From contig CM007990.1 in the NCBI GenBank assembly GCA_002189035.1, positions 3,286,001 to 3,350,000 of the forward strand: a stretch of DNA of 64,000 nucleotides. Direction: 5' to 3'. Shown in pieces: positions 1 to 58,406 of this stretch. The notes below the pieces were generated by a model that did no database searches, was not told the DNA's origin, and saw only the letters and a list, made by a program, of their open reading frames with translations. Numbering within the stretch: the first letter of the stretch is position 1; every line of letters begins with the position of its first letter. The position numbers and the translations under genes were made by a program. This DNA is from Utricularia gibba. Lineage: Eukaryota; Streptophyta; Magnoliopsida; Lamiales; Lentibulariaceae.

Positions 1-539
1 GAAAGATAATTCAAAATATAGAGGAAATATTTGATTTTCTTTTTTCTTTTTCATTTTCTGAAAAAATATATACTTTAAAGGTTGGGTTCTTTGTTTTTTA
101 ATTTCAAATACATGAATAATATTATTTGCCCTAAATTTCGTTAGTCAAATGAGATTAGATTTTTTTTCATTTATTTTTAATACATCTATCAAATTATAAT
201 ATTATGTTAATATTACATTGTCTCTCTCTTGTAATTGATAATCTGTTGATTTTGCATGATACCATTTAATAAGGACAGCTAATATCCATTAAATGCTCAT
301 CTTAGTTCAATTTTATTGGGGTTCTTGAAAGTTTGCATTCAGGTTTCTTCTCCCCTTCGTGTGAGTGGATCTATGGAATTTGGAAGATATTTTTTATGGG
401 GTCAAATGCAATGAAAGAGTGTTTTTGACTTTTTGATGAATCATAGAGAACTGGAAAAAGATGTTTTTTTTTTATAATCACAACCAACCTATGGTGCAAA
501 TACTATTATGGATTGGGTTTTGCATTGGTTTTGGATAAA
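1..539. other. AT-rich sequence upstream of the first Mutator-like copy, no gene
   Basis: No supportable coding region. The sequence is poly-A/T rich. It does not resemble the stretch that precedes the second Mutator-like copy, so similarity between the two copies begins only near 540. The left end of the first element may therefore lie close to here, but no terminal inverted repeat or target duplication was recognised. Confidence 0.5.
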
Positions 540-809
540 AAAAAATGTAGCATGTTCTTCTATAATATGTTGCACGTTAAAAGATTATTAAAATGTGTGT
601 CTTTTACCCATAATTTTTTATGGATTATTGTTATTTTTTATCTAGGATTATGTGGTCTTTGTATTGTGCTATCATTAAGGGAGTCTTCTGTTCTTTGTAT
701 GCATGTTTTTAAAGATTTTCCTAATGACTTCTGTTACTCCTATCAAAATAATGGGTGTCGGTTGTCTTCGTCAATCTTATTATTGATTTCCTAGTTGATG
801 CATTTGTAG

Positions 810-3800
810 ATATGGATACTCACATGAAGGATGAAAGCGACTTCGAATTAGACTACGGGAGTGAGGAGGAAGACTATGAAATTCTCGATGATCAATTCCC
901 CATTGAGAATGATGATTATGGACTATCTTTGCAATTTCCCGTATTCAAAGGAGTACAATCAGAAGCTCCTAACAATGATACAAGTGAAGTCCTTTAAACA
1001 TTGTTAAAATGGAAAGCGATAGTGTTTGAATACAAGAACTTATATTATTATTGTTTTTAGTATTTAAATTGTGTTTTATTTATAGGGAAGGGATAATCTT
1101 TAAATTAAAAGTTGAGGCTAAAGACACACTTGAAGAATATTGTGTTTGGGAAGAAATCCAATTTTGGTTCGAGAAGAATGATAAGCATCGTTTGATTGCT
1201 CATTGTAAAGGTAATGAAGGGGTAACATACCCGTGGAAGGTGTATGTGAAGATAACACCGATGACGGTTTGGAGTGTTTGTGAAGTCACTCCATATCGAG
1301 ACCATTGCCGGCCACATGTGAACAACAAATCAGTGAATGCACATTGGTTTGGGAATATGTATATGGATAGGCTTATTGATCGTCCGTTGATAAAGGTTGT
1401 AGATCTACTTACGGATATAAAACGTGATTGGCATGTGAAGATGTCTCCTCAAAAGGTGAGGAGAGTGAAAGAAAATGAAAGAAAGATGGCAACGAAAAGT
1501 ATGAAGAATGATTTTGAGCAACTTCGAAGTTATTGTGAACAATATTGGGTATCGAATGAAGGTGCTATCGTGGCAATACTGGAGGTAGATGATGGTAAAG
1601 ATGAGAAAAGCAAAATATGCGAAAGAGTTTATTCTTGTCTTAAGTTATGCATTTTTGAAGCATTTTTCTAATATATTAGTGGATTTTTTTTTAATTTTGT
1701 AGTATTTTTTCTTACATATTTTTGGTTGCTTTATTGTTGAATATTGTATATTAGAAGTGTATATTATTTATTATGTAATGATAAGTTAGCATTTAATTAT
1801 AGTTGGTTTATTGAATTATGTGATAATATTTGGTTTTTTTTAGTATTTTTTTGTTTTATATGTTAATTATAGGCTTGTAAAGATGGATTCCATATATATG
1901 GCTATAATGTGATCGGAGTTGATGGTATGCATATATTGAGTAAATTGAATGGGAAAATGCTAGTGGCTATGGCCTCAGATCTGAATAATTGAGTTTTCCC
2001 CCTTGCATAGGGTGTTGTTGGTAGTGAAACTTTGATGACTTGGACTTGATTTATAAAATTGCTTGCGAAAGACTATGGTATTTCAAAGGAGACGCAAGAA
2101 TCATTTACCATATATTATTCGTTTTGAGAGACTTACTTCCAAAAGTCAAGGTAATGCATTGAGTCATATATGTTATAAATTGTAAACTAATGATGTTTAT
2201 TTGATACTTGGTTATTGTATTTTGTAGTTCCGTCATTGTGTCTTGCATTTGCTCATGAATCTTAGTAAGAGTATTTCAGCGAAGTTGACAGCTGTTTTGA
2301 AGAGCCATGTGTGGGCTATTGCTCGAGATACAGCACCTAGTCAGTTTAGGCGTGCCATGGATGCACTTAGGAATGCAATCCGAAAGCATACGAGCATATG
2401 GACGATATCCCACCATCCAAATGATGTGGAGCATTTTTCGATTGAGGCAACAAATACGTCATTTTGACGAACAACAACTCAAAGTCCCTTAATTCGGCTC
2501 TCAAGGATGAGACTGGACCTAATCGAGCTTTTGGAACGGATAAACAACAAGGTTTGCGATTGGCTTGCTAAGCGTCGTCGAGATGCATCAAAATGGCATG
2601 GAGATTTATTTCCAATAATTGAGAATATTCAAAGCCAAGCATTGGAAGATGGAAGAAAGAGGCAAATGTCCGTTTGTGATCGAGATAATTACTAGTGGTA
2701 GGAGGGAACAAAAAAATATATCATTCGGTTGATCAAGCATTTATGTGATTGCAGAGTATGGAAAATTACAAGTATGTATTTTATTTTATTTTTTTGTTTT
2801 ATTATAAGAATTAATATTATATGTGTATTAGTTTTTAATATGAATATTTTGTAAATGTATTCTTAGTCGTATGATAAAAATTAATGTTATATATGTAGTA
2901 TTTTTTAGTATGAATATTTAAGATTATATTGTTAGTTTTATTATAAGAATTAATATTATATGTGTAGTATTTTTTAGTATGAATATTTTGAATTCTATTG
3001 TTAATTTTATTATAAAAATTGATGTTATATATCTAGTGTTTTTTAATATGAATATTTTTTATTCTATTATTAGTTTTATTATAAGAATTGATGTTATATG
3101 TATAGTATTTTTCAATATGAATATTTTGTATTCTATAATTGTTTTGCATTTTTGTCTATTGTATATTTAGGTATATCTTGCAAATATGCAGCCATTGCTA
3201 TCATTTTGGAAGGCCATACTTTGGTCGAATACACAGACTCTAGAGATACACGTATAGCCTATCAAAGAATGTATGACGGTGACGTTTTAAGGTTTCTAGG
3301 AGCTGAAGAATTGCTTTCTATGGCCGACTTACCACTTCCACCTGAATAGAAGTGTAGGAAACCCGGTCGGCCATCTACTTCATGAAAGCGCAGATCCTCC
3401 AGGTTTTGTCCATCAGACTCTTTTTTGTATGGATTGATTTTGGATCGATTGAATGTAATCTGTAAGTTGGTATCATGTTACACATGTGGCAAGAAAGTCT
3501 ACAAGAAAAAAGATTGCAACAAAGGTGAATTAAATGAAAATAGGGTTCAACAATTGGAAGAAGATGAAACATCCATGCCACCGGACCTGTGTATGGCCAG
3601 CATGGAAGTTGCTGATTATTGTAGTTCGATGGGCAATGAGAAAGTTGGTGAGACTTCTCATCAAAGCCCTGTGGAAGTGAAGAAAGAAAATGCTAAACTG
3701 TATCAAGAAATACCTTTAAAGACAGTCCCGATGAGTGTAGTGTACAGCATGCCATAAAGATAAACAAACAACAAAGGAGTCATCTTCAATAGTTGCGTGA

Positions 3801-4815
3801 ATACATAGGTGGAAGTCAGCAGCAACTTGGATGCTTCTGATATTCAATTGGTTCTAAAAAATAAACGAAGGTGTAAGGCTCCTCATCTACGAGTGTATGA
3901 TAAGTTAATGGACGATGTACTAGACAATATCATTGAGTAAGTCAATGGATATAAATCTAATAGAGTATAAATTACCTATAGGAAAACCGTGGCACTACAG
4001 TCACTGGGTCATCTAACGAATGTTGCATTCATCCACAACCTATGGATGCAACATGCTGTGCACAAAAAGTTTGACTTGGAAATAATTGAAAAGTAATGTG
4101 TGAGGCACAATCCATGCAACACACGTTACATCTTCTTGCCAATTAACATGAAATAAGCTTTCCTATACATATATATTCCTTATTTGCCATTAAAATATGT
4201 GTCACTTTCAATTGTCTCTATGTCTTGTAGTGGTCACTACACCCTTGCCATATTGTCTTGTCATGGATTCGATACATAGCATATCCACTCATATGACAAA
4301 TAAACTTTAGAAGTAAGCAATATGTTATATTGTGTTTTATTATGAATCTCTATTAATCTTTTTGTTATGTATTATCTATAGATTAGTGGACTCCGTTATT
4401 AAAGTGAATAGTTGGTATGATGATTGTGTGAAGGAGCTTGAGCTATCTATTTTTTGGCCAGAGACTAGTATGACTTTGCTGATATTATTTTCTTTTCCTT
4501 ATTTTAATGTTGATCAACATATAGGTCCCTAAATAAAAGGATGCAATTGAGTGCGGGATTTATATATTATACTATAGGCATCTCTTCCTCCAGCAAACTC
4601 CCAACCTTTACACTATCAAAACACATCCCTTGTTTGTAAATAATTTTTAAAATTTGTTGGTTATTTTATTAGTAGGTATCACTAAGTACTATTATGTTGC
4701 ATAGATGGTGTGAGATTGGTTCGTTGAAGAAGAAATTCGTGAATTTGCCGAATTGATGGAGATTTCTCGTCGATCTAAGAGCAGTCGGATAAGCAAACCT
4801 TCCCAAAAAATGTAG
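810..4815 (+). pseudogene. MULE transposase-Ulp1 fusion, copy 1, multiple stops
   Basis: Exon-like blocks follow copy 2. An acidic segment (about 810-997) opens the protein. The MuDR N-terminal domain (about 1086-1650) reads EGIIFKLKVEAKDTLEEYCV and LLTDIKRDWHVKMS. The MULE core (about 1873-2150) has GVDGMH but in-frame stops replace tryptophan codons (LA*GVV). The SWIM second half is GISCKYAA, so the CxH pair is damaged (His to Tyr). The zinc knuckle reads CYTCGKKVYKKKDC, with the metal-binding His lost. In the protease part the region after the catalytic His has lost about 35 bp (near 4250), and the Gln codon of the Q-x5-C motif has become TAA (4534-4536), although the Cys (IECGIYIL) remains. 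Not functional. Confidence 0.8.
2800..3146 (+). repeat. Minisatellite, about 69-bp unit x5, in the SWIM intron of MULE copy 1
   Basis: The phrase TATTATAAGAATTRATRTTA recurs at 2800, 2870, 2939, 3008 and 3077, a spacing of 68-70 bp. Each unit continues through TAGTATTTTTTAGTATGAATATTT. It occupies the intron that splits the SWIM zinc finger (CxC on one exon, CxH on the next). The same intron of copy 2 carries a related but rearranged array. Confidence 0.85.
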
Positions 4816-5086
4816 ACATTGAACTTGTTTGTTGGTATGAAATTGCAGACTTTGTTATTTGTCTAAAACACTACTTTTTTTTAATTTTTAAACAAGTATT
4901 ATACAAACAATCATAATATGCTTATGATTTCTGCATTTTTTCAGATAATTTATTTGAATTCTAATTACTATCATTCTAATTACATTTAATAAAAAAATAA
5001 ATATGTGTGTAGAAGGGTATAGAAAATACCACACGGGACTCGTGCTATATGGAGGGTGACACACGGGCGTGTGGAGGGTTGATATG

Positions 5087-5111
5087 GGCGTGGGTTATGG
5101 TAACCCACGCC
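5087..5111. repeat. Perfect 11-bp hairpin in a GC-rich island
   Basis: GGCGTGGGTTA (5087-5097), a TGG loop, then TAACCCACGCC (5101-5111): a perfect inverted repeat with a 3-nt loop. It sits about 270 bp downstream of the stop codon of MULE copy 1, inside a GC-rich patch with CACACGGGCGTGTGG at 5060-5074, in otherwise AT-rich DNA. Related hairpins lie at 6466-6486 and 12124-12163. Confidence 0.85.
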
Positions 5112-5409
5112 GGTATAGTAGACAACATAAGCCATGTCCGTGTTATGTAGTAATTGAAATATTTGCTGCTTAATTTGTATTTTTGTGCTTTTTTAACCCA
5201 TAATTTAAGGATTCAATTCTAATTCAATATAAATTGTATGTTTTTATAAAATTAAAATTAATTCATAAAGAAAATGAAAAACGAAAAATAATAAATTAAA
5301 ATACTGAAAGTTCAATTCATTTTCATTAATTGCAATTTTTGTATGAATAAAAATGTTATTAACAAATAAAGATACAAAAGTATGAGCTTGATAGAAAGAT
5401 GGGTTTTCC

Positions 5410-5710
5410 ATCAAATCGAGTGCACATTTTATTAAGATGTTACTTGATTATTTGTAAATTGAATATATATTTTTTATTTAAATTTTATTTTATCAATTGA
5501 CCCTTAAATGCAAAGGGGAACGAATGCAGATTTTTTATTTTAAATTTTTATTAGCATTCGATTCTTAGATATAATATGGATCGAATGCATATTTTTTTTA
5601 TTTTAAATTTGTATTAGCATGCGACTCTTAGGTGGAATTTTGATCGATTGCATATTTTTTTACATAAAATTTATATTAGAACTCAATCATTACATACAAT
5701 TGGGATGGAG
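5410..5710. repeat. Degenerate tandem repeat, about 62-bp unit (CGAATGCAT family)
   Basis: CGAATGCAG, CGAATGCAT and CGATTGCAT occur at 5521, 5582 and 5645, each followed by a T-rich stretch (TTTTTTATTTTAAATTT). A weaker unit (CGAGTGCAC) is at 5417. The same word set forms an array at 31734-32040. Confidence 0.65.
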
Positions 5711-6129
5711 AAGAGTCCAATGCATTGCATCTCTCACTGACACATGAACTCTCCATTTGGCATAAGATGGTGGCTTTCTAATTCATTTATCATTAAATTT
5801 TGATTTTCTTTCATATAAAATCATATTGTGACTCCATCTAAAATGAGAATACATTTTTTATCCACAAAATCCATGTCATTTATTCATTTTATACGGGTTA
5901 ACGGATTACGACCCTCAACTCATCCTGGATACAAGTCAACCCATACATACACGGGTTTACCCATATCCAGGTTGACTTGACTCGAATAAGCATAATAGAA
6001 ATTTATACCCACGTATGCAATGCTTGGTAATTACAAATCATCTTAAGAAATTTTATACCATTTTGTTAGACACAATGAATTTAAAATATGTTTGGGATAT
6101 TCAAACTTAAGAATTTAATAAAAAAATAA

Positions 6130-6790
6130 TATAATAAAAGAATGTACTCTATCCTTTGGAAGACCAAGCATCGGATGCGTTATTTTTTTCTTAAAAAAAA
6201 AACAATCTATCCTTAAAAGTCATAAGTATAGAATGTATTATTTTACTTATTAAAAAAATAATGCACTTTTTCCTTAAATGATACAAGGATCGAATGCATT
6301 CTTTTATCAATAAAAAAATAATACAATAAAATACTGCACTATATCCTTAGAAGACATAAGGATAAAGTGCAATATTTGTTATTAAAATACTATTGCACTC
6401 ACTCTCCACAGGGCATGGGTTACGATAACCGATAACCGATGTCGGTGCCCCACCCTCCACACGGCTGTGGGTTACGCTAACCCACACAAGTATGCCACCC
6501 TCTACGGGTAACCCACATTGGTATGCCACCCTCCACATGCCAGTATTTTTTTAATAAAAAATACAATGTACTCGATCCTTATGTCTTCTAAGGATAAAGT
6601 AAATTCTTTTATTGTATTATTTTTTATTAATAAAAGAATACACTCGATCCTTATGTATTTTAAATATAGAGTGTATTACTTTTTAAAAAAAATTTAATCT
6701 ACCCTTATGCCTTTTAAGGATAAAGTGCCTTTTGTAATGAAAAAAATAATGCATTCGATGCTTCTATCTTCTAAGAGATAGAGTTCACAA
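6130..6790. repeat. Near-palindromic 60-70 bp repeats on both sides of a GC-rich core
   Basis: Units of the form TCCTTAGAAGACATAAGGAT followed by AAAGTGCA or CGAATGCAT recur near 6150, 6210, 6270 and 6343. In the other orientation they recur near 6565, 6625, 6690 and 6748. The core (about 6400-6540) is GC-rich with repeated ACCCTCCACA and GGGTTACG words. Confidence 0.6.
6466..6486. repeat. Perfect 9-bp hairpin in the GC-rich core upstream of MULE copy 2
   Basis: TGTGGGTTA, CGC loop, TAACCCACA. It shares the GTGGGTTA/TAACCCAC arms with the hairpin at 5087-5111 and resembles the longer one at 12124-12163. Together the islands bracket MULE copy 2. Confidence 0.8.
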
Positions 6791-9586
6791 TAAAACACTA
6801 CAAATGTTATACATTCATATATACAAAATTCAACTTATAGTATATTTACTTTGGCCTTCTTAAAAAAAAAGGATTTATGTATACTTTATTTTGAAAATTT
6901 TGAATACAATAAAATTATATTACAAAATTTTATTTCTAATCAATTGAACTTATAAATATCATAAACTATTCATGATACACATGTGATACTCCCATGTTCA
7001 GATTTTTTCATTGAAATTCTAGATTTTTCTACCCTGTCATTTCTCTTCTACTTGGATTCACCTACACTAGGGATGAGGGTGCTTATTTTGGCTGAGATCA
7101 TTTGTTGAGGCAAATTGAAGTAGAAGTTAGGGACAACAGTGGAAGCCTAACTTGTTTGTTCCTATCATATTTTAGGGTCATTACTTGCTTGGCCCTGCAC
7201 TGCTTGAATTTTTTTTACATTTTAGAACACCTAGTTTTATATCCTTTAGGTGGATTAATATATAATATGTCCTTCCATAATATGTTGCACATTATGGGAT
7301 TATTAAATGTGTGCTCTTTACATGTAATTTTATATGGATTAGTGTTATTTCTTCTACTAGATTATGTAATATTTTGTATTATGCTATCAAAACAGTTGTA
7401 TGTTCTTTGTATACATGTTTTCCCAGATTTTCCATGTGACTTCTGCTTTTCTTCTTGTTAGTCTCATCAAAATAATAGGTGTAGGTTGTACTCATTAATT
7501 TTGTTGTTGATTTCCTAATTGGCAATTGTAGGTATAGATACTAACATGGAGTATAAAAGTGACTTCGAATTTGATTATGGAAATGAGGAAGAAGACTACG
7601 AGATTCTTGATGACCAATTCCCTATCGAGAATGATGATTATGGGCAAGCTTTAGAAATTCATGTCTGAAGGAATACAATCGGAAGCTCCTCAAAATGAAA
7701 CAAGTGAAGGGCCTTTCAACATTATTAGAACAGAAAGCGGTAGTGTTCGAATACAAAAACTTATGTAAGTATAATTTGTTTTGATTATGTTGTATTATTA
7801 TTATTTTTAGTATTTAAAGTATGTTTTATTTTATTTATAGGGAAGGGATAATCTTTGAATCGAAAGCCGAGGCCAAAGATGCACTTGAAGAATATTGTGT
7901 GTGGAAAGGAAACCAATTCTGGTTTGAGAAGAATGATAAGCGTCGTTTGATTGCTCGTTGTAGAGGTAGTGAAGGGGTAACATGCCTGAGGAAGGTGTAC
8001 GTGAAGGTAACACCGATGATGACTTGGAGTGTTTATGAAGTTACTCCACATAGAAACCATTGTCGGCCACAGGTGAACAACAAATCAGTGAATGCATGTT
8101 GGCTTGGGAAGATGTACATGGATAGGCTCATTGATCATCCATTGATGAAGGTTGCGGATCTACTTACAGATATAAAACGTGATTGGCATGTGGAGATGTC
8201 TACTCACAAGGTGAGGAGAGCAAAAGAAAATGCAAGAAAGATGGCGATGGGAAGTATGAAGAATGATTTCGAGCACCTACGAAGTTATTGTGAACAATAT
8301 CGGTATCGAATGAAGGTGCTACCGTGGCAATATTGGAGGTAGATGGTGGTGAAGATGAGAAAAGTAAAATATGTGAAGGAGTTTATTTTTGTCCTAAGGT
8401 ATGCATTTTTGAAGTATTTTTTTTTATTTGTGGATTTGTTTTTATTTTTGTAGTGTTTTTTCTTACATATTTTTGGTTGGTTTATTGTTGAACATTGTAT
8501 GCTAGAGGTGTATTTCATTAATTATGTAATGATAAGTTAGCATTTACGTATGGCAAGTTGATGGATTATGTGATAATATTTGATTTTTTTTAATATTTGC
8601 TTGATTTCTATGTGAATTATAGGCTTGTAAAGATGGATTCCGTATATGTGGCCATAATGTGATTGGAGTTGATGGCACGCATACATTGAGTAAATTGAAC
8701 AGGAAAGTGCTAGTGGCGACGGCCTCGGATCCGAATAATGGCGTTTTTCCTCTTGCATGGGGTGTTGTTGGTTGTGAAACTTTAGTGGCTTGGACTTGGT
8801 TCATGAAATTGCTTGCTGAAGACTACGGTATTTCGGAGGAGACGCAAGAATCATTTACCATAGTTTTAGATAGAGCTCCTGCAATATTATCTGTATTGAG
8901 GGACTTTCTTCCGAAAGTCAAGGTAATGCATTGAGCCATATATGTTAAAAATTGTAAACTAACGATGTTTATTTTACACTTGGCTATTGTATTTTGCAGA
9001 TCCAGCATTGTGTCTTGCATTTGCTCAAGAATCTTGCTAGAAGTATTCCAACGAAGTTGACGGCCGTTTTGAAGGGCCATGTGTGGACTGCCGCTCGAGC
9101 TACAACGTCTGGTCAGTTTAGGCGTGCTATGGATGCACTTAAGGAATGTAATTCCAAAGCATACGAGTATATGGACAGCATCCCACCATCTCAATGGTGT
9201 TGAGCATTTTTTGATCGAGGCAACAAGTGTGCCATTTTGACGAACCACAACTCAGAGTCCCTTAATTTAGCTCTCAAGGATGCTAGGATGCTAGGAGGCT
9301 GGACCTAATCAAACTTTTGGAACGGATTAACGACAAGGTTTGTGATTGGTTTGTTAAGCGTCGTCAAGATGCATCAAGATGGCATGGAGATTTATGTCCA
9401 AGAATTGAGAATATTCTAAGCCAAGCATTAGAAGATGGCAGAAAGTGGCATATGGATGTTGGTGATCAAGGTAATTACCGATGGTCAGAGGGAACAAAAA
9501 AATACACCGTCAGGTTGACCAATAATTTTTGTGATTGTAGAGCATGGGAAATTACAGGTATATATTTTATTTTATTTCTCTTGTTT

Positions 9587-9978
9587 TATTATAAGAATTG
9601 ATGCTACATGTGTAGTATTTTTTATTATGAATATGTCGTATTCGATTGTTAGATTTATTATACGAATTGATGTTACATGTGTAGTATTTTTTGTATGAAT
9701 ATTTCATTAGGTTTATTATAAGAATTGATATTATATGTTTAGTATTTTTTAGTATGATTATTTTGTATTCTATTGGTAGGTTTATTATAAGAATTGATGT
9801 TACATGTGTAGTATTTTTTGTATGGATATTTTATTAGGTTTATTATAAGAATTGATGTTATATGTTTAGTATTTTTTAGTATGATTATTTTGTATTCTAT
9901 TGGTAGTTTTGTTAGAAGAATTCATATTATATTTATTGTATTTTTTAGTATGAATATTTTGTATTCTATTATGTGTTT
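9587..9978 (+). repeat. Higher-order minisatellite (alternating 58- and 69-bp units) in the SWIM intron of MULE copy 2
   Basis: The unit start TATTATAAGAATTGATGTTA recurs at 9587, 9656, 9714, 9783, 9841 and 9910, giving intervals of 69, 58, 69, 58 and 69. The 58-bp units lack 11 bp of the TTTTGTATTCTATTGGTAG tail. The pattern is a 127-bp dimer repeated, built from the same 69-bp monomer as the array in copy 1. Confidence 0.85.
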
Positions 9979-10861
9979 TACATTTTTATCTATTGTTTGG
10001 TTAGGGATACCTTGCAAACATGCGGTCGTTGCTATTATTTTGGAGGGCCATACTTTGGTGGAATACACAGACTCTAGATATACACGTATGGCGTATCAAA
10101 AAATGTATGATGGTGATGTGTTCAAGCTTCTGGGAGCTGAAGAATGGCCTTGTATGGCCAACTTACCGCTACTTTCACCTGAGTGGAAGCGTAGGAAACC
10201 TGGTCGTCCATCAAATTCACAAAAGCGCAGATCCTCCAGGTTTTGTCCATCACACTCTTTTTTGTATGGATTGGTTTTGGATTTATGGTTGATTGAATGT
10301 AACTTGTAGGCTGATATCATGTTCCACATGTGGCAAGAAAGGCCACAAGAAAAAAGATTGCAAAGAGGGTGTCTTAAATGAGGATAGGGCTCAACAAATG
10401 GAGGAAGATGAAACACCCATACCACTGGAACCATGTACGGCCAACAAGGATATTGCTGATTATTGTAGTTCCATGGGCAATGAGGAAGTTGGTGAGACTT
10501 CTCACCAAAGCCCTATGGAAGTGAAGAAAGAAAATGCTAAACCGCATCAAGAAATACCTATGAAGACGGTCCCAACAAGTGTGGTGTACAACATGCCACA
10601 TGGTCAAACGAACAACAAAGGAGTCATCTTCAATAGTTGCGTGAATATGCGGGTGGAAGTCAGTAGCAACTCGGATGCCACCGAGCTTCAACCGGTTCTG
10701 AGAAATAAACGAAGGTGTAAGGCTCCCCATCTACGGGTGTATGGCGAGCTGATGGATGATGTACTAGACGACATCATTGAGTAAGTCAATAGATATGAAT
10801 CCAATATAGTACATATTCTATTTTTTTGGAATTTTATTCTAGATCATTGTTTTTATCTGTA

Positions 10862-11739
10862 GGAAAATCGTGGCATTGCAGCCACCGGGTCGTCTAACGA
10901 ATGTTGCATTCATCCACAACCTATGGATGCAACATGCCGTGGAGAAAAAGTTTGACTTAGAAATGATTGAAAAGTGGTGTGTGAGGCACAATCCATGCAA
11001 CACTCATTACGTCTTCTTACCAATTAACATGAAGTAAGCTTTTTTATACATATATATTCCTCATTTGCCATTAGAATATATGTCACTTTGAATTGTCTCT
11101 ATATGTTGTAGTGGTCACTACACCCTTGCCATATTGTGCAATCTTGGAGAGAAATACCAACGGTGTATCCTTGTCTTGGATTCGATGCATAGCATGTCGA
11201 ATCATATAACAAGTAACCTTCGAAAGTAAGTAGTGTGTTTTAATACCTTGTGCTATATTGTGTATTATTCTTAATCTCTGATAATATTTTTGCTATGCAT
11301 GATCTATAGATTAGTGGACTCTATATTTAAAGTGAATGGTTGGGATGATGATTGTGTAAAGGAGCTTGAGTTGCCTATTTTTTGGCCAGAGGTTAGTATG
11401 ACTTTGTTAATATTATTTTTTCCCTTATTTTAACGTTGATAAACATATAGGTCCCTAAACAAAAAGGTGCAACTAAGTGCGGGATTTATGTGTTATACTA
11501 TGTGTATCTTTTCCTCTAACAAGCTCCCAACCTTTACACTATTGAAACACACCCTTTGTTTGTAAGTAATTATCAAAATTTATTGTTTATTTTATTAGTA
11601 GGTACTAAGTACTATTATGTTTCTATAGATGGTACGGGATTGGTTCGTTGAAGAAGATGTTCGTGAATTTGCAGAATTGATGGAGATTCCTCATCGATCT
11701 AGAAGCGGCCGGGTAAGTAAACCTTCCAAAAAAATGTAG
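10862..11739 (+). other. Ulp1/C48-type cysteine protease domain of MULE copy 2
   Basis: Four exon blocks with canonical splice sites. Catalytic residues in family order are His in GHYTLAIL (CAC 11116-11118), Asp in LVLDSMH (GAT 11179-11181), Gln (CAA 11460-11462) and Cys in TKCGIYVLYY (TGC 11478-11480). The Q-x5-C spacing matches SUMO proteases. Upstream FLPIN (about 11026) precedes the His as in the family. The domain reads open from 10862 to the TAG at 11739, so unlike the transposase part it carries no visible stop. The role in the element is unknown; deSUMOylation is only an inference from the fold family. Confidence 0.75.
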
Positions 11740-11939
11740 ACATTGAACTTGTTTGTTGGTATGAGATTGTAGACTTCTTTATTTATCTTTGACACTATTT
11801 ATGCATAATATTTGTTTCTTTAAAATTTTTAAACAAACATCACATGAGCAATCATAATATGTTTATTTATACTTATGCAAACATCATACGATAGTGTAAG
11901 GATCATGTCCTTCCTTAGACTTGTCTCGAGCATTTCTCA

Positions 11940-12250
11940 GTCCCAAGTCCACACTGTTTATTACCGCTCGATCCGAATTGCTTGTAAGTATAGAGCGCTA
12001 ATAAACCTCAAGGCCACACGGGCATCCTTTTTATTTATTAGTGCTCGATCCAAATTGTGTGGCCTTTCTCTTAGCGCTCGATCCTTACACACGGTTCGGA
12101 ACGAGCGATGATGAATCTGTAAGCCACACGGGCGTGGTTTACGCATAAACCACGCCCGTGTGGCCTTGTCGCACTGCTTGTGTGCATAAGGGCGTCATTT
12201 ATGATACACGCTCGATTCGAATCATTCCTAAGGGTCGAATGCTAATAAAA
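11940..12250. repeat. 3' flank of MULE copy 2: repeated GCTCGATCC words and a long hairpin
   Basis: GCTCGATCCGAATTG, GCTCGATCCAAATTG, GCTCGATCCTTACAC and GCTCGATTCGAATCATT occur within 300 bp, separated by segments with CCACACGGGC. The same GATCC(TTA) and AATGCTAATAAA words fill the spacer upstream of this copy. The block may be subterminal sequence of the element. Confidence 0.55.
12124..12163. repeat. Perfect 18-bp hairpin, GC-rich
   Basis: CCACACGGGCGTGGTTTA (12124-12141), CGCA loop (12142-12145), and its exact reverse complement (12146-12163). It lies about 385 bp past the stop of MULE copy 2. It is longer than, but related to, the hairpins at 5087-5111 and 6466-6486. Confidence 0.9.
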
Positions 12251-12555
12251 TTAAAAACTAAAAAACTTTCATATTTATTATATGGTTTAATAAATAACAT
12301 ATTTACATTATTTATATTTTAAGAAACATATATCATATGTTTAAAAATATTTTTTTTGTAATTCTTGCATTTGTCATGTTATCGTATGTTTAGAAATAAA
12401 TCTGATGTATAAAAATATTGATAATAATCTTAAGTTCACATTGCAACGACATCACGAATTCGAATCGTAGTGGGTTGACACGATGAATATTCGGATTGAC
12501 TGTTGTGCCCATGTCTACAGGGCACTTATTGCTCAATATTTATTTCAAAAGGTAT
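12251..12555. other. AT-rich spacer, no gene
   Basis: No coding or repeat structure seen beyond A/T runs. Confidence 0.4.
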
Positions 12556-13060
12556 TCAATTTGTTTAAAATTTTGAAAAACTTTATAGGTTATTTATGTC
12601 AATTCAATAAACTTATTAGGTTAATTCTGTTAATTTGTCACACTTTATGGGTTAAATATGCGGATTTAACGAACCTTAAGGGTCAACAATGTCAGATTAT
12701 TAAACTGTAAAGGTCAAATATGTCAAATTATTGGGTTGAATATACCAACTGAACACTAAATATGGGATCAACAGTAAACTTATTGGGTCAAACGGACTCC
12801 GTTGTAAACTTTTATAACTTTTCCTTGGGTCAAATATACCTCGTTATCATATTTTATGGGTTAAAAGTATCAAAACTGAATTTTTCATGGGTCAAATATG
12901 TCATGCAACAAATTTTTTACAGGTCAAATATATCATTTTGTAAATATTTTGGGTCACATGTGAAACCGGTACCGGTTCAGGTCAAATATGCCGAACCGAT
13001 CATTTTGTTATGGGTCAAAAATGGTAAAATTTCAAAATTTTAGGTCACAAATGCCAACAC
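12556..13060. repeat. 31-bp degenerate tandem array with GGGTCAAATATG core
   Basis: GG-T cores fall at 12588, 12619, 12650, 12681 and 12712, exactly 31 bp apart. They continue at 12734, 12765, 12786, 12828, 12859, 12890, 12922, 12952, 12980, 13013 and 13043, mostly 28-33 bp apart. The core consensus is GGGTCAAATATG; between cores the sequence is T-rich and variable. Eight cores are exact GGTCAA, i.e. TTGACC (W-box type) on the minus strand. One unit includes the palindrome AACCGGTACCGGTT (12964-12977). The array ends about 125 bp past the stop codon of the FAR gene. Confidence 0.8.
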
Positions 13061-13184
13061 CCCGATTCCTTTTCAATTATTTTGAGAATTCAATCTTAAT
13101 ATTGTATTACTTTGATATTTTCGAAGTTTGGTGAACAAAACAAGTTCGCCAATCTTGAATGGAGTATCTAAACCCGAAGTTTGT

Positions 13185-46860: not shown

Positions 46861-46990
46861 TATTTTCTTTTGTAAAATATTAAATTAATATAAAATATGG
46901 AAAATTAATAAAAAAAATGAAAAAATAGAATATAAAACCAATATGATAAATGATTTTGTGTCGTTCCAAAATATGTTTTTCCACTACTAT

Positions 46991-48341
46991 TGATGTGTGT
47001 CGTTTCCACAACAAATTTTAATACTTTTAAAACATCGTAAAACACCAAAGCGTAGTACGGGTATCGAACACAGGGAGCGGTTTTTGAGTGAAAGGTGAGG
47101 CACCCCGAATACAACTGTCACGATTTGTAAACGGTTTTGAAGGTAAAAGGTGCGAGAAATGTTGATGATGAAGCTTGAGTAAAGGAAAGAGAGGGGTTTT
47201 GAGCAAACAACTAAAATGAACATAAGCGATGAACCTTAAATAAAGTAAATGTTCCTAGGTTTGGAATCCTGTCCAGCTATATTCGTTGCGTCTTCACTCT
47301 TCTTTGGTCCTCTCGAGTATTCGGTTATAGGAGTAAAGAATTGCCTACCCTCCCTTACACTCTCTTGCAAAAAGGCACGGGAATAGCCCGATGTTGCTCC
47401 TCCTTGGACGAACGTGAGAATAAGAGGTCCTGCCAGCGTACCCTCACGGCCGAATTACGCGCGTGTGCCCGAGTGTTGCCAATGACCCAATGAGTCCAGA
47501 TACGAGGTCACTACCTGTCCATTGATCCTGAGGTACGGCCACAAACAAAACGTTGTCTTCCTCCTACAAAAAGGGCTCGAGTTGGTGCTTTCCACCTTGC
47601 TCCTCTCCAAAATCCGCGGGTAGTGATCAGCTAACCATGAATCGTGAATAAGGGGACTGTTACAGAAAGACTGCAACATAGTCGCAGCGAAGACATACGA
47701 AACCCGTTCGGATTCAGAGAAAATGTGAAGATAAGCTAACGATACATAGATCTGGTGGTGTTCCAACCCAGAAACGCAAGTTCCTAGCCGCGAACGGCCA
47801 TACAAACTAAAGAAAACGCAAACAAGGTTCTAGAGAGAAGCTAGAGGAAAATTCCTCTAGAGAGAGAAAACAAAAGGGAAACTAAGCTGAAAGTAAAACT
47901 AAACTTGTTTGAACATAACTGAACTTCATTGAGAGTATGAGCTTTTGTGTCCTTGTGATTCTGCTGAACTTGGGATGACTTGTAAGCAACGTCTGACACT
48001 GGTACGCTAATGATGCTGCCTGTTAGAGACTCTCGTGTTCCGCACGTCAAGGCTCATGATTAGGGGTCTGCAGTCTTCCGGAAATCAAGGGAATGTCAGT
48101 TCGGGAAAATCCAATTTGTCGCCATCTGATGCCCTTTTTCTCTCACTTCCTGTCACGTGTGTGCCTCTAGAAAAACTCAATTAAAACTATTAAAATTAAT
48201 AGATAAAATACAAGATTTAAGATAATTACCCTAAACTAGATAAGAACCTAAATCTCATATTATAGACTCTTAATTAGATAGTCCTAATCATAATTAAGCA
48301 TAAAAACAACCTAAGAATTAGTAATAAAATGACACTTAACA
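46991..48341. repeat. Solo LTR (1351 bp) with 5-bp target duplication
   Basis: Starts TGATGTGTGTCGTTTCCAC and ends GACACTTAACA, with ACTAT on both sides (46986-46990 and 48342-48346). Collinear with 57078-58401. Contains TTGTTCGAT-type words read as TCGAACACAGGGA on this strand and a conserved non-coding core (AATAGCCCGATGTTGCTCC). TG...CA ends plus a 5-bp duplication are the mark of LTR integration. No internal retrotransposon sequence adjoins it. Confidence 0.8.
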
Positions 48342-57077: not shown

Positions 57078-58401
57078 TGATGCGTATCGTTTCCATAACA
57101 AATTTTAATATTTTTAAAACTCGTAAAACACAAAAGCATAGTATGAGTGTCGAATACATAGAGTTGTTTTTCAGTGAAAGGTGATGTTAAACTGAATACA
57201 ACTATCACGATTTGTAAATGGTTTGGAAGTAAAAGGTGCGAGGAAAGTAAATGATGAAGCTTGATTAAGGGGGTAAGAGGGTTTTAAACAAACAACATAA
57301 ATAAACGTAAGCGATGAATCTTAAGTAAAGCGAATGTTCCTAGGTTTGGAATCCTGCCCAGCTATGTTCGTTGCGTCTTCACTCTTCTCTGGTCTTCTGG
57401 AGTACTCGATTATAGGAGTAAGAAATTTCCTATCCTCCCTTACACTCTCTTGCAAGAAGGTACGGGAATAGCCCGATGTTGCTCCTCCTTGGACGAACGT
57501 AAAGATAAGAGGTCCTGTCAACGTACCCTCACAGTCAAATTGCACGCGTGCGCCCGAGTGTTGTCAATGACCCAGTGAGTCCAGATACGAGGTCACTATC
57601 TGTCCCTTGATCCTGAGGTACGGCCACAGACAAAACTAGTCTTCCTCCTACCAAAAGGGCGTGAGTTGGTACTTTCCACCTTGCTCCTCTCCAAAATTCC
57701 CTGGTAGTGATTAGTTACCCATGAATCTTTAATAAGGGGACTGTTACAGAAAGACTGTAATATAGTTGCGTAAAACATATGAAACCCGTTCGGATTCAAA
57801 GAAAAGATGAAGATAAACTAACGAAACAGAGATCTGGGAGTATCCTAACCCAGAAACGGAAGTTTCTAACCGCAAATGGCCATGCAAACTAAAGGAAATG
57901 AAAACATATTCTAGAGAGAAGCTAGAGGAAAATCCTCTAGAGAGAGAAACAAAAGTCTAAACTGAGTTGGAAGTCCCCCTCAATGTCTGAACAAAATTGA
58001 ACTTCAATGAGAGTCTGAGTTTTCGTGTCCCCTTGGTTCTGCTATGAAATGGCATGACTTGCACGAAAGTTCTGCTTTGACATTGGTACGCTAATGATGT
58101 CGCATATCAAAGACTCTCGTGTTCCGCATGGCAAGACTCATGATTAGGCGTCTGCAGTTTTTCGGAAATCAAGGAGTGTCAGCTCGAGAAGATCTATTTT
58201 GTCGCCATTTGGTGCTTTATTTCTCTCACTTCCTACCACGTGTGCACTTCTAGAAAAACTTAAATAAAACTAGCAAAAATATTAAATAAAATACAAGATT
58301 TAGGATAATTACTTTAAACTAGATAAAAGCCTAAATCTCATATTATATCACATTTAAACATAAAAACAAACTAAGAAATAGTAAGAAAATGACACTTAAC
58401 A
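57078..58401. repeat. Solo LTR (1324 bp), second copy, nested in the Harbinger element
   Basis: Starts TGATGCGTATCGTTTCCAT and ends GACACTTAACA, collinear with 46991-48341. Flanks TATCA (57073-57077) and CATCA (58402-58406) are a 5-bp duplication with one mismatch. CpG-type C to T changes are frequent relative to the other copy. Confidence 0.75.
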
Positions 58402-58406
58402 CATCA

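Follow-up and report, generated by a model that had tools for sequence, protein, structure and literature searches.

The question raised by this locus is whether a MULE transposase and a Ulp1-type protease, whose coding remains follow each other on the forward strand of the window (the whole stretch of 64,000 nucleotides of Utricularia gibba DNA analysed here), are parts of one gene, and, if so, to which kind of element that gene belongs and what the protease would do in it. Our reading of the sequence, to which we assign a probability of roughly 0.8, is that the locus is a dead, 5′-truncated copy of a MuDR-like MULE with a single spliced transposase–protease fusion gene.

We translated the plus strand and found one collinear exon series at 7548–11713 (+). 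Exon 1 (7548–7766) encodes an acidic N-terminus, exon 2 (7842–8398) the MuDR N-terminal domain (PF03108, E = 5.7e-6), exon 3 (8623–8922) the MULE/DDE core with two catalytic Asp (PF10551, E = 6.1e-15), and exon 4 (9000–9556) the remaining DDE core; the DDE triad is present as the two Asp and a presumed Glu. They are followed by exon 5 (10007–10241) with a SWIM zinc finger (PF04434, E = 1.7e-9), by exon 6 (10310–10782) with a CCHC knuckle (PF00098) and an open linker, and by the protease exons P1 (10863–11034), P2 (11112–11226), P3 (11310–11391), P4 (11451–11561) and P5 (11629–11712), the last of which holds the C-terminal part of the C48 region. The full fused reading frame was assembled exon by exon, and none of the copies read is completely intact. 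The domain order from MuDR N-terminal domain through MULE/DDE core, SWIM and CCHC to Ulp1 (C48) lies on a single strand. This bears out the initial annotation, which had proposed one MuDR-to-Ulp1 exon series and had named PF03108, PF10551, PF04434 and PF02902 for a Pfam search; all four were matched in that order. The transposase domains are at or over their Pfam cut-offs, as in a MuDR-like MULE, with the CCHC knuckle borderline (20.5–20.9 bits against a cut-off of 20.8). Exons 4 and 5 are separated by an intron made up of an expanded tandem repeat (9585–9970) with units of about 58, 69 and 127 bp, whose length differs among copies.

The protease part matches PF02902 with E = 2.5e-5 (24.6 bits against a cut-off of 20.7) in the window copy and with 37.6 bits in the related copy L063. 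The catalytic codons His 11116 and Asp 11179 are in P2, and Gln 11460 and Cys 11478 are in P4, just where the annotation had put them. The best match of the protease among solved structures is human SENP7 (E = 1e-10), whose motifs SHW, LILDS and VPKQ....DCG align with the catalytic His, Asp, Gln and Cys. A PF02902 match over the cut-off together with this His-Asp-Gln-Cys set assigns the protease part to Peptidase C48. The same four residues are shared with SENP7 and the ULP2-type SUMO proteases; however, host deSUMOylases are not fused to a transposase, whereas the window protease is a predicted peptidase that is.

Comparison with relatives showed a 2-nt frameshift near 7664 in exon 1 (where the copy L061 is continuous), a 1-nt frameshift near 8300 in exon 2 and, in exon 4, a TGA at 9201–9203 and an 8-bp tandem duplication near 9281–9296, which is also a frameshift. 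These lesions bear out the earlier claim that the transposase part has four or more. The protease part had been described as free of stops. However, an in-frame TAA lies at 11517–11519 in P4 (..YLFL*QAPNLY..), 13 codons past the catalytic Cys; at this position all readable family copies have Gln, apart from L008 with a stop of its own. With a stop in the protease too, the earlier picture of a damaged transposase next to an intact protease has to be given up. Both activities were presumably lost in the window copy, and the copy itself is an ordinary relic. The catalytic Cys is lost in several copies, being Tyr in L061 and L062, as would be expected if the protease were dispensable, or if these copies had simply decayed.

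We searched the plant assembly of about 100 Mb with the DDE and protease sequences. At about 20 loci, a DDE exon is followed within a few kb by a protease exon of the same strand. The pairing was judged by eye from match tables; among the matches listed for these loci, none placed a DDE exon near the protease exon on the opposite strand. In L063 the DDE–protease pair is split by a nested insertion, and a MULE–ULP copy that looks like the L083 type lies nested and reversed within this window-family copy (about 3000–4300 of the reverse complement). Ten further regions were excised and read exon by exon, and in all relatives read the ULP and the transposase share strand and frame. Three lineages can be distinguished by the DDE exon: the window family, L068–L070 at about 45–50% identity, and L083 at about 30% identity. 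By eye, the domain order in L083 is unchanged and the introns within the protease fall at the same positions. The upstream regions (7022–7256 against 208–551 of the window) differ between the window copy, WIN_B, with L061 on one side and WIN_A (a second copy in the window), L062 and L066 on the other, with the coding parts close, as if there were subfamilies with different 5′ ends.

The same-strand arrangement could also mean that each element carries two separate genes, a mudrA-like transposase and then an independent ULP gene, comparable to published elements that carry a transduplicated ULP. In published ULP-MULEs the ULP is described as downstream of the transposase ORF (PMC2528002), and in Arabidopsis KIU forms a gene of its own (PMC13317346). 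However, exon 6 is free of stops between the knuckle and the protease in the window copy, L061 and L062, and it is joined to P1 by an intron with a GA|GTAAGT donor, whose junction is conserved in position and frame in L068–L070, that is, across lineages of only about 45–50% identity. L083 has, by eye, kept the introns at FPE|V and YPSF|L, so that the protease-internal intron positions are common to three lineages and the joining intron to two. The dN/dS of the linker is 0.45 (0.34–0.59), which indicates that the linker evolves as coding sequence, and the transposase and ULP distances are correlated across copies (Mantel r = 0.78, p = 0.0015). The open linker, the conserved joining intron and this co-inheritance support the earlier claim that MULE and Ulp1 are combined in one gene, and we consider two separate genes improbable. 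The comparison also supports a single fused gene that would predate the split of the three lineages. It has further to be asked whether the protease exons are those of a host gene, unrelated to the element, that a MULE entered or adjoined, since the host genome has other C48 genes. The same arrangement recurs at many dispersed loci, and the copies share element sequence and a terminus beyond the protease; a host-gene origin is ruled out by these dispersed copies. The protease might instead act as a processing enzyme that cuts itself free of the transposase, as viral polyprotein-processing enzymes are among the C48-like folds. The usual Ulp cleavage signal is a di-glycine, and the exon 6 linker has none in any of the 11 family copies read, which makes self-processing less likely; we regard it as very unlikely.

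If the two parts form one gene, the protease may still have been kept by selection for longer than the transposase, and the initial annotation had suggested that it was under selection longer or was used in trans. We estimated dN/dS separately for both parts, as the annotation had proposed. Over nine copies, dN/dS was 0.52 (0.44–0.61) for the transposase and 0.41 (95% interval 0.30–0.54) for the protease, with a bootstrap support of 0.92 for the lower protease value (0.95 in the four closest copies); too few ULP changes for an omega comparison were available in the clade L068–L070. The lower point estimate would agree with a longer-lived protease, as would L063, in which the transposase is broken yet the ULP is free of stops. 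However, the two confidence intervals overlap, the stop density of the nine copies is not lower in the protease (18 in 1472 codons) than in the transposase (42 in 4359 codons; Fisher’s test, p = 0.37), and the window copy has a protease stop as well. Transposase and protease were thus both under purifying selection, and the difference suggested earlier is not clearly present. These results lend no support to either suggestion, longer selection or use in trans; a longer-lived protease is possible, but we think it unlikely.

We return to the fused gene and to the element that carries it. The span of 7264–11870 given in the initial annotation covers the gene but not the element. Homology between the window copy and L061 runs from 7022 to 13063 (+), and the flanks are unrelated. 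The true 3′ terminus, ...TGCCAACACCCC, is at 13063; the ending ...CAACACCCC is common to L061 and the window copy, and its form is also found in L064, L068, L071, L072 and L074. The match of the window copy ends at 7021/7022, whereas other copies extend about 0.8–1.2 kb upstream to GAGATAATT..., and position 7022 was therefore rejected as the 5′ end of the element. The MuDR TIR primer given in PMC2563033 begins with the same 9 bases as the 5′ terminus, GAGATAATT. Immediately upstream lies WIN_A (208–7021, +), which belongs to the same family but is further decayed; it has the order MULE to ULP (exons 824–4788), and both its ends are truncated. The junction at 7021/7022 sets the 3′ part of WIN_A abruptly against the 5′-truncated WIN_B, as from a deletion or a recombination between neighbouring copies, or it may be an assembly join.

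Both ends are present in the copies L061, C142 and C321, which are flanked by 10-bp TSDs (10/10, 9/10 and 10/10 matching positions), within the range of about 9–11 bp of MuDR-like MULEs. The first 28 bases of these copies agree in register with the reverse-complemented last 28 at 19, 20 and 22 positions, where controls average about 8 of 28; the control frequency is at most 0.0023. These three relatives thus have short degenerate TIRs, and the 3′ one of the window copy is at 13036–13063 (+). The lack of TIRs that had been assumed earlier is contradicted by these repeats and TSDs. For the window copy itself, neither 7022/13063 nor the region upstream of WIN_A yielded a TSD, which is expected with 5′ truncation, and none was convincing in L064, L068 and L069. 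Near the 3′ end, an array of GGTCAAATATG-like motifs at 12650–13023 (+) holds 7 of the 10 matches in the window, all on the plus strand, where chance would give a mean of 2.2 per whole window; an inverted array of the same kind is found at the 5′ end of L061. Two other repeats were noticed. A GC-rich repeat block (GCTCGATCC.., GCCACACGGGCGTGG..) lies at 11950–12190, close to the element’s 3′ end, and in L061 it also occurs near the 5′ end. A repeat of about 1.3 kb with TGTTAAGTGTCATTT / AAATGACACGCATCA ends is present at 46990–48341 and 57078–58402 of the window, and another breaks the last protease exon of L070 (about 5264–6592).

The element had been taken for a member of Kaonashi. The Kaonashi elements of Arabidopsis are described, in the cited accounts of Hoen 2006, as non-TIR MULEs with a C48/ULP under purifying selection and with many copies (PMC2528002, PMC6117577, PMC13317346). 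The window family resembles them as a many-copied MULE whose ULP is under purifying selection (dN/dS 0.41, 95% interval 0.30–0.54). However, the ULP of these KI-MULEs is in reverse orientation to mudrA (PMC2528002), and KIU shares its element with two other genes, its Ulp1 function being described as unknown (PMC13317346). Here the ULP is fused to the transposase, whose strand and frame it shares in every relative read, and degenerate TIRs are present, so that membership of Kaonashi as stated is unsupported. ULP-MULEs of the same orientation, with the ULP downstream and in the same sense as in the window family, are known from the Mutavine/Jitvine families of grapevine (PMC2528002) and, as cited there, from melon and rice (van Leeuwen 2007); according to that account both TIR and non-TIR families occur. 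Because its ULP is same-sense and not reversed, the window family belongs with these, as compared by described architecture, and the element kind is already known from several plants. By description they share the MuDR-like transposase and the downstream ULP1 domain; the window family differs in the joining intron and intron positions conserved across lineages, in its short degenerate TIRs and in a TSD of 10 bp, not 9. No paper naming a C48-MULE fusion was found in the literature search. The mudrA-type transposase domains and the terminal GAGATAATT are shared with maize MuDR. MuDR, however, lacks a ULP, and its TIRs are long and near-perfect, in contrast to the short degenerate TIRs and the ULP found here.

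An intact gene would encode one polypeptide in which an N-terminal DNA-binding domain precedes a DDE transposase, SWIM and CCHC fingers come next, and a cysteine protease of the ULP2/SENP7 kind forms the C-terminal part. Such a protein would bind the element ends and the subterminal GGTCAAATATG arrays and would move the element by cut-and-paste. The tethered protease could strip SUMO, or a SUMO-like modifier, off the transposase or off chromatin or silencing proteins at the element, and this deSUMOylation may help the element to escape repression. Most likely, in terms of predicted domains, the intact protein moved the element by cut-and-paste, and its tethered ULP2-like protease would have targeted SUMO conjugates at the element or the transposase itself, this second part being the more conjectural. 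Only tentatively do we propose the fuller view, that transposase and SUMO protease were one polypeptide before the three lineages split and that the protease was a deSUMOylase acting against silencing, tethered in cis and targeted by the DNA binding of the transposase.

ULP domains are recurrent in plant transposons, and their role is described as unknown (PMC13317346). In the present family the protease lies within the transposase polypeptide, the joining intron is conserved and the element ends are defined, which narrows the possible roles of the ULP. In a family fused in this way, the protease would be present wherever the transposase is.
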